A DNA stretch of 54,635 bases. It comes from Pseudomonadota bacterium. Lineage in GTDB: Bacteria; Bdellovibrionota; Bacteriovoracia; Bacteriovoracales; Bacteriovoracaceae. How positions within the stretch are numbered: position 1 is the stretch's first letter; every line of letters begins with the position of its first letter. Below, one piece after another: positions 16,767-24,333 of this stretch. Position numbers and translations under genes: made by a program. The notes below the pieces were generated by a model. The model saw nothing but the letters and a program-made list of their open reading frames with translations, was not told where the DNA came from and did no database searches. Where the stretch lies: positions 1 to 54,635 of the forward strand of contig JAIYDC010000013.1 in assembly GCA_027487685.1 (NCBI GenBank). The letters run 5' to 3'.

Positions 16767-18368
16767 TTAAGAGCTTCTGAGTCGCTCCTGGGCCCAGGAA
16801 GAGAGTCTGGTGCGATCAATCTTGATATTATGCCGAACGTCCACGGGAAGGCCTGAGTGCAGGAAAAAGTGGGCGATGCTGCGGGTGAAATCCTCTGTAT
16901 CCTTGAGCCGAAGAAGTTCTTGATAGAAATCAGTACTCATCCGAGTCGAACGGTCATGCCGCTCGATCACCAGTCCAGGAACCACTCTCGAATCGACCTT
17001 TAACTTCACCAAAGCACTCCGACGAATTTCAGGATGCTGATTAAAAATCGCCTCCATTTGGATCGAAAAGTATGTGCTGCTCTCCGTTTCAACACGATGA
17101 ACTTTCCGTCCCAGAAACCACAGATTCTTGTCCTGGTCGAGACGACCTACGTCACCCATCCGGTGCCAAAGCTTTCCGTCAGAGGTGATTTTCGAGCGTC
17201 GAGTTTCCTCTGGCATGTCAAAATAACCGGCCGTCACCTGGGCGCCTTGAACGGCGATTTCACCGACTTCACCGGGCGCGCATTCCCACAACTCATTTTC
17301 AGGAATATCCGAAGTTTTTAATATCTTTATCGCAACACCCGGGACCACTTTTCCAATGCATGTCCCCAATCCCTTCTGCATCAAGGGAAGATGGGTTTTA
17401 AGGATCTCTGTCCCGGAAGTCAGAGAAACTGGCAAACATTCGGTTGCCCCGTAAGGAGTAAAAGTGTCTCCCTTTGTTAAAACCTGACTAAACAGTTGAT
17501 GAATTTCGGCCCGCACAGGTGCACCGAACATCACGACTTGCTCCACCGATGGAAGAGTTATGCCAGCAGCAACACAGTAGCGCCCCACCCGCTCCCAGAT
17601 CGCAGGAGAACCGGCGACAAACGTCACTTTATGATCAAGGATATTGCGGACAATTTTAGCAGGATCACAGCCCGCGGGTCTGGTCGGATCCATCTCAGGA
17701 ATCACAGAGGTCATCCCCATCGCAAGGGTAAAGAGAGCAAAGAGAGGAAAGCCGGGTAAGTCGATCTTGTGCTCATCGAGGGAAAATATTTCGCGTAGAA
17801 CTTCAGTCTGGGAGTTCAAAATGCCATGGGTGTAAAGTACCCCTTTGGGGATTCCCGTTCCGCCCGAGGTGAAAAGGATCGCGGCGAGGTCGTCAGGGGT
17901 CACTGCCAGCGGTGAGAATGTAGAAGCTTCAGATAGGAGATCATCATAGAGGTAATGGGTCGATCCTCCCACGCGGTTAAGGGAGATCTTCACTTGGACT
18001 GAGGAGAAAAAGCTGCGCTTGAGTCGCCGGACCCAATGCACCAGACCCACCGAGATAAGGGCCTCAGGTCTCACCTGCTTGACCGAGTTTAAAAGGTTGG
18101 GAAGTCCCATTCCCGGATCGATGAGAACTGGAACTGCGCCAAGCTTAAAAAGAGCGAAGGTGATAATGGAAAAATCCAGGCAGGGTTTCACAAACAAAAG
18201 GGTGCGCATGCCTGGCCGAATACCCAGGCGCTTGAAGCGGTTGGCGAATCTGTTTGAGCGTTCCTCAAATTCTCGAAAAGTGTAGAAGGATTTATTCAGG
18301 GCAAAGACCACAGAAGGTTTTTCAGGTAAACGTGTGGCGACGTCGCAGATACGGCAGGCGATGTTCAC
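16767..18368 (-). CDS. oleC: OleC, AMP-dependent beta-lactone synthetase
   Basis: A 533-residue member of the AMP-forming acyl-CoA synthetase superfamily. The ATP-binding loop is ILFTSGGTGIPKGV (165-177), followed by the adenine region TPYGATECLPVS and the hinge-side motif LWHRMGDVGRLDQDKNLWFLGRK. TPYGATExLPV is characteristic of OleC rather than of generic fatty acyl-CoA ligases. OleC adenylates a 2-alkyl-3-hydroxy acid and closes it to a cis beta-lactone, with no CoA needed. The GTG start at 18368 follows GGGAGG. It lies 11 bases after oleB, in the order oleA-oleB-oleC. Confidence 0.92.
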   Translation of the reverse strand: MNIACRICDVATRLPEKPSVVFALNKSFYTFREFEERSNRFANRFKRLGIRPGMRTLLFVKPCLDFSIITFALFKLGAVPVLIDPGMGLPNLLNSVKQVRPEALISVGLVHWVRRLKRSFFSSVQVKISLNRVGGSTHYLYDDLLSEASTFSPLAVTPDDLAAILFTSGGTGIPKGVLYTHGILNSQTEVLREIFSLDEHKIDLPGFPLFALFTLAMGMTSVIPEMDPTRPAGCDPAKIVRNILDHKVTFVAGSPAIWERVGRYCVAAGITLPSVEQVVMFGAPVRAEIHQLFSQVLTKGDTFTPYGATECLPVSLTSGTEILKTHLPLMQKGLGTCIGKVVPGVAIKILKTSDIPENELWECAPGEVGEIAVQGAQVTAGYFDMPEETRRSKITSDGKLWHRMGDVGRLDQDKNLWFLGRKVHRVETESSTYFSIQMEAIFNQHPEIRRSALVKLKVDSRVVPGLVIERHDRSTRMSTDFYQELLRLKDTEDFTRSIAHFFLHSGLPVDVRHNIKIDRTRLSSWAQERLRSS

Positions 18369-18379
18369 AAGGGACCTCC

Positions 18380-19264
18380 CTACTTTACAAAGTCCCAGAT
18401 TTTAAGTGAGACCTCATCGAGGGCATCTTCCAATACGTAATGGCCTGCGCTCGCGAACCAGTGGGCCTGGGCGTTTGGATAGATCTGAACCCACTTTTCG
18501 AAGTAGTGGTGATTAAAACAAAAATCTTTTCCGCCCCAAAGGATGAGCTTGGGATGGGGGAGACTCGTCAGTCGCGCCTCAATGTCTAAGAGTGTTTGAT
18601 AAGTCTTGTGATCCTTCTCCATAGGGATATCCTGAACGAAGCGCGCCACCGCGATCCGGTTCTCCCAAGAGTTGTAAGGTAAAAGGTAGCCATCCTTGAT
18701 CGCTCGAGGAAGCTTCTTCTCAGTGGTCATAAAGGTGGCAGGCCAGGCGAAGAGGTTCAGTTTGCGGGTGAGCCACTCGCCTAAGCGCCCCTGGCGGAGA
18801 AGGTTAATCCGCTGTGGGATATGCTCTGAGGGATAAGCGGCGGTGTTCAAAATCACGATCCGGTCAAAGAGCTCAGGGTAACGAGTCACGAGTCCAAAAC
18901 CGATCGCTCCTCCCCAGTCGTGGACGATGAGGATGATTTTCTTCAGGTCCAAAAAGCGGATGAGCTTGTAGGTATTTTGAATATGGGTCTCAAGAGAATA
19001 ATCGTAGTCCTGGGGCTTATCGGACATGCCACAACCCATATGGTCCGGAACTACCGCGCGAAACTTAGGAGAGAAGGTGCGGATGAGATTTCGGTAGTAA
19101 AACGACCAAGTCGGATTCCCGTGGAGCATAAGGATCGGCTGCCCTTGCCCTTCATCAATGTAATGTAGGTTATTTCCCCCGAGACTTAGGAAATGAGACC
19201 GGAAGGGATAGTGTTCCTCAAGGCCAAGCTCTTTAATCCGTTCCCTGATTGCTGTCACATCCAC
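18380..19264 (-). CDS. oleB: OleB, beta-lactone decarboxylase (alpha/beta hydrolase)
   Basis: A 294-residue alpha/beta hydrolase of the haloalkane dehalogenase-like group. The nucleophile is D116 in LIVHDWGGAIGFG, the oxyanion region is LHGNPTWSFYYRNL (48-61), and the catalytic histidine is H275 in ASAGHYVLED. OleB opens the beta-lactone made by OleC and releases CO2 to give the cis-olefin. An aspartate nucleophile, rather than serine, agrees with this. Its GTG start overlaps the oleA stop by ten bases, and it is followed by oleC, so the three are translationally coupled. A true dehalogenase is the alternative by fold, but the gene context decides for OleB. Confidence 0.92.
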   Translation of the reverse strand: MDVTAIRERIKELGLEEHYPFRSHFLSLGGNNLHYIDEGQGQPILMLHGNPTWSFYYRNLIRTFSPKFRAVVPDHMGCGMSDKPQDYDYSLETHIQNTYKLIRFLDLKKIILIVHDWGGAIGFGLVTRYPELFDRIVILNTAAYPSEHIPQRINLLRQGRLGEWLTRKLNLFAWPATFMTTEKKLPRAIKDGYLLPYNSWENRIAVARFVQDIPMEKDHKTYQTLLDIEARLTSLPHPKLILWGGKDFCFNHHYFEKWVQIYPNAQAHWFASAGHYVLEDALDEVSLKIWDFVK

Positions 19265-20283
19265 TCCATTCCGAGCATGGTGCTCGTTAAACCGCTGCCA
19301 ATCCCTAGGAGGGCAACTTTATCACCAGGCTGCAGAAATCCTGCCTCGCTCGCCTTGATAAGCGTGAGAGGCAGCGCCGCTGACCCCGTATTTCCAAAAA
19401 GTTCATAGGTCTGAAAGTCTCGGTCCAGCGGAAGACCAAGTTGAGTCAGCATCGCCAGCCGATGGGCCGTGCCGACCTGATGAGGAATGATCCTATCTAC
19501 GCCGCTGTTATCCCAACCTAAAAGTGTGCGGCACTTTTCCCAGTTCTCCCGTGCAAGAGCTACGCCGGCCTTAAGGAGTGCTTCGGAGTCCGTTTCCATC
19601 ATGAGACCGTGAGTAGAGCCATCTCCCTGGCAGAGTTCCACCGAAGAAGAGTCCGTGAGGGAAGTCCCCCCCAAAATTTTAGGTGCTCTGGGCGCGAGAT
19701 CAGAATGAGTCAATAGAAAGGCGACAGCAGCAGAGCCGATGGTCAGTGAGGCCATATAGGGTTTAAGGCGCTTCCGGTCCATGGTCGGATCGGTCACCAG
19801 ATGCTTGAGGGTTTCGCGAATCAAAGGTCCAGCGTTCTCGCCGGAGACAATGAGTGCGGTTCTTATCGCTCCCCGCTCGATCATCTGGCCCGCCATTATG
19901 ATACTCGACAGTACTCCGAGGCAGGCGTTGGAGAGATCGGCAATCATACAGTGGGCCCCTAGCCTAAGGTTGCGATGAACCTGGGCCGCTGTGGCCGGTT
20001 CGAGGAAGTCCCGGCACACCGACGCATGAAGGAGGAGGTCAATCTTCTCCCGTGGAAAATTCTGGAGAATTTTATCCGCCGCCTCTGAAGCGATGGTCGA
20101 GGGTCTGGTTCCGTTGGGCCAAAGGCCCCGTCGCTTAATGCCAGTCTGGAGTTCAAGGCGACCATAGGGCAAACGGGCCCGGTCGTAGAGTGAAGCCAGT
20201 TCAAGTTCCATGGCATCAGAGGTGAGAAACTCCGATGGTTCTTGGTAAGCATAGGAATGAAGAGAAAGTTTTTGAAAGATCAT
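19255..20283 (-). CDS. oleA: OleA, head-to-head acyl condensing thiolase
   Basis: A 342-residue thiolase-fold enzyme of the FabH/OleA group. The triad is C121 in DLSNACLGVLSS, H268 in IIPHQVGTAHR and N298 in ELFGNTGSAALP. E95 in CRDFLEPATA lies where OleA supplies its special glutamate base, which separates it from FabH. OleA joins two fatty acyl thioesters head to head by a non-decarboxylative Claisen condensation to a 2-alkyl-3-keto acid. Its start overlaps the stop of the upstream CrtI-like gene by four bases (ATGA), so expression should be coupled to the acyl-modifying enzymes. Confidence 0.93.
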   Translation of the reverse strand: MIFQKLSLHSYAYQEPSEFLTSDAMELELASLYDRARLPYGRLELQTGIKRRGLWPNGTRPSTIASEAADKILQNFPREKIDLLLHASVCRDFLEPATAAQVHRNLRLGAHCMIADLSNACLGVLSSIIMAGQMIERGAIRTALIVSGENAGPLIRETLKHLVTDPTMDRKRLKPYMASLTIGSAAVAFLLTHSDLAPRAPKILGGTSLTDSSSVELCQGDGSTHGLMMETDSEALLKAGVALARENWEKCRTLLGWDNSGVDRIIPHQVGTAHRLAMLTQLGLPLDRDFQTYELFGNTGSAALPLTLIKASEAGFLQPGDKVALLGIGSGLTSTMLGMEWM

Positions 20284-21686
20284 TCGCCCTGCTTCGCTTC
20301 GCTCATAAGGCCATGAAGGTTTGCCATGGAGATGCCCGACAGCATGGCACCAATGATCCCCAGAAATCCTTGATCAGTGCCGATAACAAAAAGATTTTTT
20401 ACCGGCGTTCGACCATCTCGAGTTTTATCAGTGGATCCATAAACCGTGCCGTTCAGGTGGCCGGTGTAGCGCTCGATGGTAAGCGGAGAGAAGACGTCAG
20501 TAAAGAGAGGCTTCTCAACAAGGCCCGGGACCAGGGAGTGAACCAAAGCGAGTGCACTCTCCCCCACCACCTGCTTCATCTCCAAGTAACGCGACCGCTC
20601 GAGGTCCTTCCACTGCTGGTAATTGGCCATGTAGGTGACACGGACTGTGCCTTCTCCATCCCGAACATGAGGCTCGTAATTATCAGGGAAGCAGACGACA
20701 GCGGATACGTCGTCAAAGAAGTTCTGGGCGGGCCGATAAGCGTAGGTTTGAGCATTGTTGGCAAAAATAATCGTCGCCTCGTTGGCCGTGAGGGGAATTT
20801 TATGGTCGAAAACAAAAATACTTTCCAGAAAGGTCATAGCACCAACCCGGGGCTTCGCTTCGAGGCTTGGCGCCAGGGCCACGGTTTCCGGGTAACCGAC
20901 GGAGGAGAAGACCACGGGCGCCAGAAGCACCTCGCCACTAGCCACGACCCCAACCACCTCACCGTTTTTGACGAGGATCTCGGAGACGGCAGTCTTGAAT
21001 CTAACTTCTGCTCCAAGCTCCTGGAGCTTGTTCATGAGAAGTCCAATGATAGTGCGCACGCCGCCTTCGGGTCTTGAGAAGCCTTCGAAGTAGAGTGACT
21101 TGAACATGATCACAAATTGGGCGAAGTCCATGTCGTCTTCCCAAGCGGAACCATAGATCAGGAGCGGACAAAGGAGCATTTCGGCCAGGAGATCATCTTT
21201 CAGGATGCTCCGGAGGACTTGGCGGGAGGAGGAGTACCCTAAACTAAGATCGAGTTCGTTGAAGGCACGGACTTTTTCTACCAGGAGATTAAATCCGTCG
21301 ATGTCATGAGGAAACTTCTCAAAGACCTCGCTGCGAAGGAGTTCGAAGTCGTTTGAAAAGCGAAGCTGTGTCTCCGGGAAACGGATCGCGGAGTAACTCT
21401 GGGGACAGAGTTTAAAGTCATCGTAGGATAGTCGCAGCTGTTTTAAGAGCTTAGAGAAGGGTTTGCCCTTCTCTCCCTTTTTGATGAAATTAGTGAGAGC
21501 GTGGAGGCCCACGTCGAATTGCCGGATCCCTCCGCGGTCAAAATTGCGCCGCTGGTAATAGGAATTAAGGCCGCCCGGAATGGAGTGCTTCTCGAGAATG
21601 AGCACTCTCTTGTCGAACATCGCCAGCCGGATCCCGGCGGCGAGCCCCGACATCCCAGCGCCGATGACAATCGCGTCGTAGGTCAT
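20280..21686 (-). CDS. CrtI/CrtISO-like FAD-dependent oxidoreductase (copy 2)
   Basis: A 468-residue flavoprotein of the same superfamily as the gene at 10168-11598 but clearly divergent from it. The N-terminal motif is IVIGAGMSGLAAGIRL (GxGxxG at 9-14), E32 binds ribose (LILEKHSIPGG), and the C-terminal motif includes LFVIGTDQGFLGIIGAMLSG. The stretch SSRQVLRSILKDDLLAEMLLCPLLIYGS fits the helical substrate domain of the family. It sits between the ACP gene (six bases upstream) and oleA (4-bp overlap). This strongly suggests that it acts on an ACP- or CoA-bound chain destined for OleA. Desaturase, saturase and isomerase roles are all possible. No carotenoid synthesis genes are nearby. Confidence 0.85.
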   Translation of the reverse strand: MTYDAIVIGAGMSGLAAGIRLAMFDKRVLILEKHSIPGGLNSYYQRRNFDRGGIRQFDVGLHALTNFIKKGEKGKPFSKLLKQLRLSYDDFKLCPQSYSAIRFPETQLRFSNDFELLRSEVFEKFPHDIDGFNLLVEKVRAFNELDLSLGYSSSRQVLRSILKDDLLAEMLLCPLLIYGSAWEDDMDFAQFVIMFKSLYFEGFSRPEGGVRTIIGLLMNKLQELGAEVRFKTAVSEILVKNGEVVGVVASGEVLLAPVVFSSVGYPETVALAPSLEAKPRVGAMTFLESIFVFDHKIPLTANEATIIFANNAQTYAYRPAQNFFDDVSAVVCFPDNYEPHVRDGEGTVRVTYMANYQQWKDLERSRYLEMKQVVGESALALVHSLVPGLVEKPLFTDVFSPLTIERYTGHLNGTVYGSTDKTRDGRTPVKNLFVIGTDQGFLGIIGAMLSGISMANLHGLMSEAKQGE

Positions 21687-21692
21687 CTGATA

Positions 21693-21944
21693 CTAAACAG
21701 GTGCGGTAGCGAACTTGGGGCCAAGATAAGCGACGCAACTCTGGAGCGAGGCGAGCTTCGGATAATCTTCCTGAGGAACTTCAACCTTGTGCCGTTTCCG
21801 CAGTTCCATTACGATGTCGAGGAAATCCATAGAGTCGAGGTCAAGCTGCTCGCGCAGTGACTTCGCATCGTCGATGCTCGAGACGTCTTCGTCCGGAGCT
21901 ATATCTGAGATGATATCAATTACGATCTGTCTTACGTCTGCCAT
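21693..21944 (-). CDS. Acyl carrier protein, pathway-specific
   Basis: An 83-residue acidic helical protein of ACP size. The phosphopantetheine attachment serine is S38 in LDLDSMDFLDIVMEL, replacing the DSLD of housekeeping AcpP with DSMD. The C-terminal half (ELRKRHKVEVPQEDYPKL) is more basic and Pro-rich than in AcpP, pointing to a dedicated carrier with its own partners. It is ten bases downstream of the FabF-like synthase and six bases upstream of the CrtI-like gene, and should carry the growing or modified acyl chain. No phosphopantetheinyl transferase is present in the window. Confidence 0.92.
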   Translation of the reverse strand: MADVRQIVIDIISDIAPDEDVSSIDDAKSLREQLDLDSMDFLDIVMELRKRHKVEVPQEDYPKLASLQSCVAYLGPKFATAPV

Positions 21945-21954
21945 AGGTATCTCC

Positions 21955-23193
21955 TTATGCCTGATACTTCTTTACAATTAGTGCTGAGTTAATCCCCAGC
22001 ATCCCGAAGGAGTTGTTGAGGATATAGTTGACGTTGCCCACGGGCCGAGGCTCGTTGACAACGAGATTAGGAATTTCGCATTCTGGATCTAAATCAACAC
22101 AGTTCATTCCCGGATGAACCAGGCCATCGGTGAAACTCGGAATGTTCCCGGCGAGCTCGATGGAGCCGGCCGCGCCCATGCAATGACCGATATGCCCCTT
22201 CGTGAAGTTCACATAAGTCTTGTGAGAGCTCTCAAATGCCTTCCGCACCGCCTGGGATTCATTAACGTCGCCGGTGCCAGTCCCGGTAGCATGCATATTC
22301 ACGAGGTCAATATCTGATGGAGTAATGCCGGCCCGGCGGATCGCCTTGTGCATGCACTGGACCTGGCGCTCGCCGTTAGGATTCACGAAATCGGTGGCAT
22401 CTGAGTTGATCGCGTAGCCAACGATTTCAGCGTAAATTTTAGCTCCGCGCTTGACCGCATCCGGGAGACGCTCGAGAACGTAGACACAGCCGCCCTCGGA
22501 GATTGCGATCCCGTTTCGGTTCTTTTCCAAAGGTCGGGAGGCACGGGTCGGGTCCTCATGGTGAGCGAGTGCACCCTGGGCCGCGAAAGCAGCAAAAATT
22601 CCAAAAGTCTGAGAAGATTCGGAAACGCCACCCGCCAAGGCCATGTCCACTTCTCCCAAAAGGAGCTGCTGAACACCCTGGATGATGCCCACATTGCCTC
22701 CGGCACAGGCCGAGCCAAGTGTATAGTGGGGGCCCGTGATACTGAGATTTAAGGTCACTTCACCGGCCGAAGAATTGGCCACTGTCCGTGGGTTATGGTG
22801 GGGAGACCAAAGTTTCCAATCCAGACCATTCTGGTGCATCTGGTAGATCTCCTCCTCAGTCTCAACGTTTCCATGCTCAGTGATCCCGAGGTAGACACCC
22901 ACCATCGACTTATCGACACTGGCCCAGTCCAGGCCCGCATCGGCGATCGCCTCGTTGGCGCAATAAATTGAGATTGAACCGGCGCGGGTTCCACGGCGAC
23001 GAAGTTTCTTGGATTGATATTTATACTCATCAAAATCGCACATCCCGGCGACCTGCTTACCCATGTAACGGATCTCGTGATGCTTCACACCGGAGCGACA
23101 CTCAAGCAGAGACTTCCTGAATTCGGCCAAATTATTTCCGTTAGGGGCCGTCAGACCGATCCCTGTCATCACGATGCGTTGTGAGTCACTCAT
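21955..23193 (-). CDS. FabF-like beta-ketoacyl-ACP synthase II family enzyme
   Basis: A 412-residue elongating ketosynthase. The catalytic residues are C163 in LGSACAGGNVGI, H302 in NMHATGTGTGD, and H338 in FTKGHIGHCMGAAGS with K333 just before. The active-site loop SACAGG departs from the usual TACATG of housekeeping FabF, which suggests a specialised chain. I chose the ATG at 23193, where the FabF-like sequence begins (QRIVMTGIGLTAPNGN). The frame is open 26 codons upstream but through non-coding-looking sequence. It is the first gene of the minus-strand FabF-ACP-CrtI-OleA-OleB-OleC operon and should supply chain elongation by decarboxylative condensation with malonyl-ACP. Confidence 0.9.
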   Translation of the reverse strand: MSDSQRIVMTGIGLTAPNGNNLAEFRKSLLECRSGVKHHEIRYMGKQVAGMCDFDEYKYQSKKLRRRGTRAGSISIYCANEAIADAGLDWASVDKSMVGVYLGITEHGNVETEEEIYQMHQNGLDWKLWSPHHNPRTVANSSAGEVTLNLSITGPHYTLGSACAGGNVGIIQGVQQLLLGEVDMALAGGVSESSQTFGIFAAFAAQGALAHHEDPTRASRPLEKNRNGIAISEGGCVYVLERLPDAVKRGAKIYAEIVGYAINSDATDFVNPNGERQVQCMHKAIRRAGITPSDIDLVNMHATGTGTGDVNESQAVRKAFESSHKTYVNFTKGHIGHCMGAAGSIELAGNIPSFTDGLVHPGMNCVDLDPECEIPNLVVNEPRPVGNVNYILNNSFGMLGINSALIVKKYQA

Positions 23194-23249: not shown

Positions 23250-23373
23250 ACTTTGTTTGTATAGTGAACAATTAAGATTAGATACCTTGATTTCCATGAG
23301 ACCTTAAGACATGATTGACTCGATCAAAAACTGAAGCAGAAAAAGCGACCGCCAGTCTCAAGGAGTTCTCGCT

Positions 23374-23772
23374 ATGGAAAGTCTCATCGTCATCTCAAAA
23401 GTTAAGAAGTTTATTAAAGATAAAGCCGATATGAATACCTCCACCGGTTTCTTTGAGCCCTTGAACACTGACGTGGTTAAAGCTTGTCGTGACGCTGTGG
23501 CCCACGCGCAAAAACTGGGTCGTAAAACGGTCATGGGCAAGGACTTCAATCTCTACGTTGAAAAAATCAACATTGAGGAAGCTTTGGTTGTTGCGTCAAA
23601 AGTAAAGAAATTGGTGAAAGACGAGGCGAACCTGTCGACCTCCGCTCAGGCCATTGATCAACTCACTAACCGGATCCAGACGGTGTGCCTGAAGGCCATT
23701 GAGAATGCCAAGGCAGACAAGCGCAAAACGGTCATGGACCGCGACTTTGTGGCGCCGACGATGATGGCCTAA
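23374..23772 (+). CDS. Histone-fold doublet protein (bacterial histone-like)
   Basis: A 132-residue basic protein made of two similar halves, residues about 4-59 and 71-126, offset by 67. Both halves read ASKVKK/ISKVKK, then KD..N.ST, then a long amphipathic helix, then RKTVMxxDF (50-58 and 117-125). GRKTV followed by a short helix is the ending of archaeal and Bdellovibrio-type histone folds, and half-length single-fold homologues are known from Bdellovibrio (HBb). I infer a covalent pseudodimer that binds and shapes DNA. A good AAGGAG ribosome site precedes the ATG. It is monocistronic and divergent from the fabF-like operon. The fold assignment comes from motif reading, not a structure search. 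Confidence 0.8.
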   Translation: MESLIVISKVKKFIKDKADMNTSTGFFEPLNTDVVKACRDAVAHAQKLGRKTVMGKDFNLYVEKINIEEALVVASKVKKLVKDEANLSTSAQAIDQLTNRIQTVCLKAIENAKADKRKTVMDRDFVAPTMMA

Positions 23773-23835: not shown

Positions 23836-24333
23836 ATGAAATTCGAAAATCTGCGAACAGAGCGACTCCTTATTCGGCGTTTTACATCCGATGATGCTGA
23901 AGCATTGTCCAGCTATAGAAGTATCCCTGAGGTCACAAGGTTTCAGGCCGCGTACTCAATTGAAAGGGCCAATCAGCTCGTGATGGAGATGTCAGCATCT
24001 GACCCGATCATTCCAGGAAAGTGGTTTCAATTCGCGATTGAACTGACGGCCGAACACAGATTAATAGGCGATATCGGATGTTTCAATGCTGACGATGATG
24101 GAAGGAGCTGGATTGGTTTCACTCTCGACCCATGCTATTGGAATCGAGGTTATGCAGCGGAGGCAGTGAGGCAAGTCCTTGCCTATTATAGGCAAATTGG
24201 TATTACGAAAGTTTGGGCATCAACAGATTCCGAGAATGAAAATTCAATGAAGCTCTTAAGAAAGCTCGGATTTACATTGGACGATGTTAAACCTGACGGC
24301 ATGATTTTTGTCTTATCTGGGCACGGTGGATAA
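23836..24333 (+). CDS. GNAT family N-acetyltransferase (RimJ/RimL-like)
   Basis: A 165-residue acetyltransferase of the RimJ/RimL type. The start LRTERLLIRRFTSDDAEALSSY is the standard opening, IGFTLDPCYWNRGYAAEAVR supplies the acetyl-CoA loop (RGYAAEA), and WASTDSENENSMKLLRKLGF is the usual C-terminal strand and helix. The substrate cannot be told: ribosomal protein N termini, antibiotics and small amines are all possible. The region is visibly more AT-rich than its neighbours, so recent transfer is possible. No ribosome site precedes the ATG, and a TGATAAG box lies at about a -10 distance. The 3' end overlaps the convergent symporter by 21 bases. Confidence 0.9.
   Translation: MKFENLRTERLLIRRFTSDDAEALSSYRSIPEVTRFQAAYSIERANQLVMEMSASDPIIPGKWFQFAIELTAEHRLIGDIGCFNADDDGRSWIGFTLDPCYWNRGYAAEAVRQVLAYYRQIGITKVWASTDSENENSMKLLRKLGFTLDDVKPDGMIFVLSGHGG

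Follow-up and report, generated by a model that had tools for sequence, protein, structure and literature searches.

A conserved histone-fold doublet of Bacteriovoracaceae related to the bacterial histone HBb

Can a bacterial protein hold two histone folds on one chain, and what would such a fused pair do with DNA? The question is raised by a small gene in the window analysed here (the whole stretch of 54,635 nucleotides from a member of the Bacteriovoracaceae). The gene lies at 23374..23772 on the plus strand, starts with ATG and encodes a basic protein of 132 amino acids (pI 9.4); a Shine-Dalgarno sequence, AAGGAG, is located 5' of it at 23360..23365 on the same strand, and a scan for sigma-70 promoters gave no match. 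Compared with the nearest relative, the gene shows a dN/dS of about 0.04 (dN 0.042, dS 1.16; a comparison with L012 was discarded, its start being placed too far upstream), which argues that the gene is real and strongly constrained by purifying selection. Contamination was ruled out, since all 26 genomes of the genus contain the doublet with conserved neighbours, and a phage origin was also rejected, since viral contigs contained no relative.

Two histone folds in one chain

The protein consists of an N-terminal fold (residues 1-61, 23374..23556), a short linker (residues 62-67, 23557..23574) and a C-terminal fold (residues 68-128, 23575..23757), all encoded on the plus strand. Each fold contains one copy of the RKTVMxxDF motif, RKTVMGKDF at residues 50-58 (23521..23547) and RKTVMDRDF at residues 117-125 (23722..23748), both also on the plus strand; the first copy lies in loop L2 with the RD clamp and is a predicted DNA contact. 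The offset of 67 residues between the copies, reported in a preliminary description, was found again, and it is the same in 43 of 45 distinct homologues (66 in the other two). When the two halves were aligned without gaps, 24 of 61 residues were identical, and the alignment score was 109, compared with a mean of -18 (sd 9, maximum 22) for 2000 shuffles. Inspection of this alignment also agreed with the earlier remark that the halves have diverged at the middle helix, which has about 4 identities in 24 positions against 20 in 37 elsewhere, and which contains FFxPLN in the N-terminal fold and QxxxQL in the C-terminal fold. Mean column entropy is 0.97 and 0.99 in the two halves, and this equal conservation suggests that neither half is decaying.

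An AlphaFold2 model calculated with a 25-member alignment of doublets reached a mean pLDDT of 92 and a pTM of 0.85, with helices at residues 7-18, 24-47, 74-85 and 91-114. In a Foldseek search, the whole chain aligned to single-chain double histone folds (Methanopyrus kandleri 1F1E, H2A-H2B chimeras, Sos and 1WWI), and the single halves aligned to HBb at 0.6-1.5 Å. By its model, the protein belongs to the structural class of double histone folds; a pseudodimer of two such folds had been proposed beforehand, and no other arrangement arose. The model also predicts that the two folds pair within one chain. Pairing between chains, which would give a bridged tetra-fold assembly linking two DNA segments, is compatible with the sequence alone, and the linker is the internal block of lowest confidence in the model. 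However, the pTM covers both halves, the whole chain aligns to known intramolecular doublets, and the tetramer residues of face-to-face (FtF) histones, R48 and N52, are missing from most N-halves, which have H/L there, and from most C-halves, which have N/D, so that we regard this assembly as highly improbable. Membership of the FtF class was rejected because of the same residues and because the doublet halves do not cluster with FtF histones in the tree described below. One homologue (L018, match from 1013) has a Thr/Glu/Ser-rich N-terminal extension, MENTTENTSETTTEGSTES, ahead of the first fold.

Relation to HBb and retention of DNA-contact residues

The closest known relative of each half is HBb (Bd0055) of Bdellovibrio bacteriovorus, a known DNA-bending histone of the 'bacterial dimer' (alpha3) type. 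In a phmmer search against the PDB, the C-half, which is the half closest to HBb, matched it at E 4e-16, and the family profile matched it at E 7e-19; the other matches were weaker single-fold histones, including HmvA and 9qt0 (HLp, PMC12701072). Identity to HBb is 55-59% in the aligned half (Foldseek), the sequence alignment to HBb is free of gaps, and the two proteins have in common a short middle helix, a one-turn alpha3, RKTxxxD, the alpha1 lysines, the RD clamp and the DNA-contact residues. In the model, alpha3 has 3 residues and alpha2 has 24 in both halves, and bacterial dimer histones are recognized by an alpha3 of 3-4 residues and a short alpha2. HBb has only one fold per chain and forms homodimers, whereas the present protein has two unlike folds on one chain, and it can therefore be described as a fused variant of the HBb type rather than a plain member.

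For the DNA-binding face, the HBb contacts given in PMC11317129 were mapped onto 26 diverse doublets. In both halves, S9, K10, K12, K16, T23, S24, K52 and T53 (HBb numbering) are invariant or nearly so, with the RKTxxxD motif, the three alpha1 lysines among these positions and the RD clamp (R51/D58) being invariant. Position 57, R in HBb, is conserved as K or R in the N-half (mostly K), and at position 22 most N-halves have N and most C-halves have S. T8, among the stronger HBb contacts, is the sole contact lost in both halves, most of which have a hydrophobic residue or alanine there, and the clamp residue D49 is lost in the N-half, unlike in HBb. The contact residues rank among the most conserved columns of the doublet alignment, and the pI is 8.5-9.7 in all 45 doublets. 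An unusual and possibly asymmetric DNA-binding surface had been suggested for this protein; asymmetry holds for the protein core at the middle helix, but the contact residues are nearly alike in both halves, which makes the DNA-binding face close to pseudosymmetric. From these residues, binding and bending of DNA by the doublet appear likely.

Bacterial doublets of the DUF1931 type, reported without DNA-binding residues and with an unclear role (PMC12701072, PMC13088155), offer a precedent for a histone fold with no role on DNA, for example as a protein-interaction module. The present protein has in common with these pseudodimers (Aq_328 and T. thermophilus 1WWI) that it is bacterial and has two histone folds per chain. 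However, its contact residues are kept twice and its pI is strongly basic, and we consider such a role very unlikely. Membership of DUF1931 itself was rejected, with no Pfam match (PF09123) in the own genome; of 25 doublets, 3 gave a match, none with an E value below 0.02. The general histone profile PF00808 scores the window protein at 17.9 bits, under the cut-off of 21.4, although each of the 25 aligned doublets is matched with an E value no higher than 1, so a survey using Pfam cut-offs could miss this protein.

Archaeal doublets (Methanopyrus kandleri 1F1E and halobacterial HstA) are similar in tandem fusion, in the handshake within the chain and in the whole-chain structural match, the present doublet being known from its model. 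They have nucleosomal-type folds with a longer alpha3, and the two kinds of doublet are most likely independent fusions. Archaeal doublets are also acidic, with a median pI of 4.7 (PMC13260811) compared with 9.4 for the window protein. ZZ histones contain an HBb-like histone domain, as the doublet does, but in them a zinc-binding domain at the N-terminus is joined to a single fold.

Distribution, origin and the neighbouring operon

Of 129 genomes in the class, 46 have the doublet, and they span 12 genera; the search of 369 genomes from the phylum Bdellovibrionota gave no further case. Profile scores in these 369 genomes were at least 193 bits for doublets and at most 84 for single folds, and the gap between them was empty. 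ZZ histones and singlets resembling FtF occur in other members of the class; the idea that the doublet strictly replaces FtF singlets was ruled out, since 8 doublet genomes contain both. In the own genome, the search for single-fold paralogues suggested in the preliminary description gave neither an HBb-type nor an FtF singlet, and besides the doublet there is one ZZ-type histone and one HU-family gene. This ZZ histone (L002 1228-1674, G000:C59) shows a cysteine-rich, zinc-finger-like N-terminal domain followed by an HBb-like histone domain.

In a single-domain tree, the 26 N-halves formed one group and the 26 C-halves another (support 96/79 and 98/92), and the two groups fell within the HBb/ZZ part of the tree, separate from FtF histones; the tree was built on 61 columns, which limits its finer forks, and the placement of ZZ histones as sister group of the C-halves is weakly supported. 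The grouping of the halves indicates that a single fusion preceded the divergence of the 12 genera, with no later exchange between halves, and by this sequence comparison one ancient fusion followed by divergence of the halves is well supported.

In 11 of 12 genera, the doublet gene adjoins a divergent operon which begins with a KASII-like ketoacyl synthase (21955..23193, minus strand), and L024 and L074 lack this arrangement. In the window (16767-23193), the operon encodes the ketoacyl synthase (KASII), an acyl carrier protein, an FAD oxidoreductase, KASIII, an alpha/beta hydrolase and an AMP ligase; we take the order of the last three to resemble that of OleA/OleB/OleC in olefin synthesis. 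The same operon occurs in relatives without the doublet, with 61-73% identity in the first gene, and in 16 of 19 such operons (L122-L140) a TrmB-like helix-turn-helix regulator lies directly upstream on the same strand. No such regulator was found at the operon head among the doublet loci. Among the 129 class genomes, the regulator is present in 55, namely 55 of 83 without the doublet and 0 of 46 with it; the doublet occupies the place of the regulator, and no genome has both.

This exchange at one locus hints at a local rather than a global role, in which the doublet would regulate the ketoacyl-synthase operon in place of the helix-turn-helix protein, with genome architecture secondary or absent. 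Two further observations point the same way. First, an imperfect palindrome, TTGTATAGTGAACAA, lies in the divergent intergenic region (23257..23271, no strand assigned) about 110 bases before the doublet gene, and 21 of 48 doublet loci contain a match to its pattern, compared with 2% of shuffles. Second, codon usage of the doublet gene is ordinary: its CAI of 0.52 equals the window median (0.52), compared with 0.68-0.75 for ribosomal genes and 0.58 for HU, so there is no sign of an abundance like that of HBb, and high expression is unsupported. However, the known contacts of HBb are with the DNA backbone only, so that sequence specificity is not expected; the palindrome matches are all in the own genus, and the palindrome may be a promoter or operator or the site of another protein; and the two loci mentioned above lack the arrangement. 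In addition, regulator-bearing operons form one clade in the ketoacyl-synthase tree, where three operons with neither doublet nor regulator fall near the basal doublet lineages, so the mutual exclusion may reflect one event in either direction. On balance, we judge regulation of the operon as the main role to be unlikely. A stronger form, in which the histone has swapped places with the regulator and controls the divergent operon while no other stand-alone histone exists in the cell, is quite improbable; if true, a bacterium would be using a histone as an operon-linked regulator, for an operon of lipid or polyketide type.

A GNAT acetyltransferase gene (23836-24333) lies next to the doublet gene, with a GC3 of 0.44 against about 0.6, and no homologue was found in any other doublet locus examined. 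It is therefore a local and probably foreign neighbour, and a link to histone acetylation was ruled out on the same grounds.

Proposed function and meaning

We propose that the doublet is probably a covalent pseudodimer of the HBb type (alpha3 family), with its handshake within the chain, which binds and bends DNA nonspecifically. A single head-to-tail fusion or duplication in the ancestor of about 12 Bacteriovoracaceae genera would have created it, and the halves would then have specialised. The two folds of one chain would pair in a handshake to give an obligate heterodimeric unit of the size of an HBb dimer. As both basic ridges are kept, this unit would most likely bind to the backbone of DNA at minor grooves, regardless of sequence, and bend it as HBb does, and we infer a role in the nucleoid. 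The ordinary codon usage, the loss of T8 and the exchange with a regulator at the operon count against this explanation.

In conclusion, the doublet is a conserved variant of the bacterial histone HBb and has apparently not been described before. Singlet and doublet size classes of histones are given in the parts of PMC10627809 consulted, and the bacterial dimer, FtF and ZZ groups are defined in those of PMC11390915; no HBb-type doublet was found in literature searches or in the main texts of these two papers, PMC12701072 and PMC13088155, and an earlier listing in survey supplements is possible. The DNA-binding histones described from bacteria have a single fold, and the bacterial doublets described, of the DUF1931 type, are without DNA-binding residues; a conserved doublet with the HBb DNA surface present twice fills the gap between them. 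It is one small protein that can be compared with the well-studied HBb, and it is carried by relatives of the predatory bacterium Bdellovibrio. A transition from homodimer to obligate heterodimer through fusion has been discussed for the histones of eukaryotes, archaea and viruses, and it has most likely occurred independently in bacteria as well.
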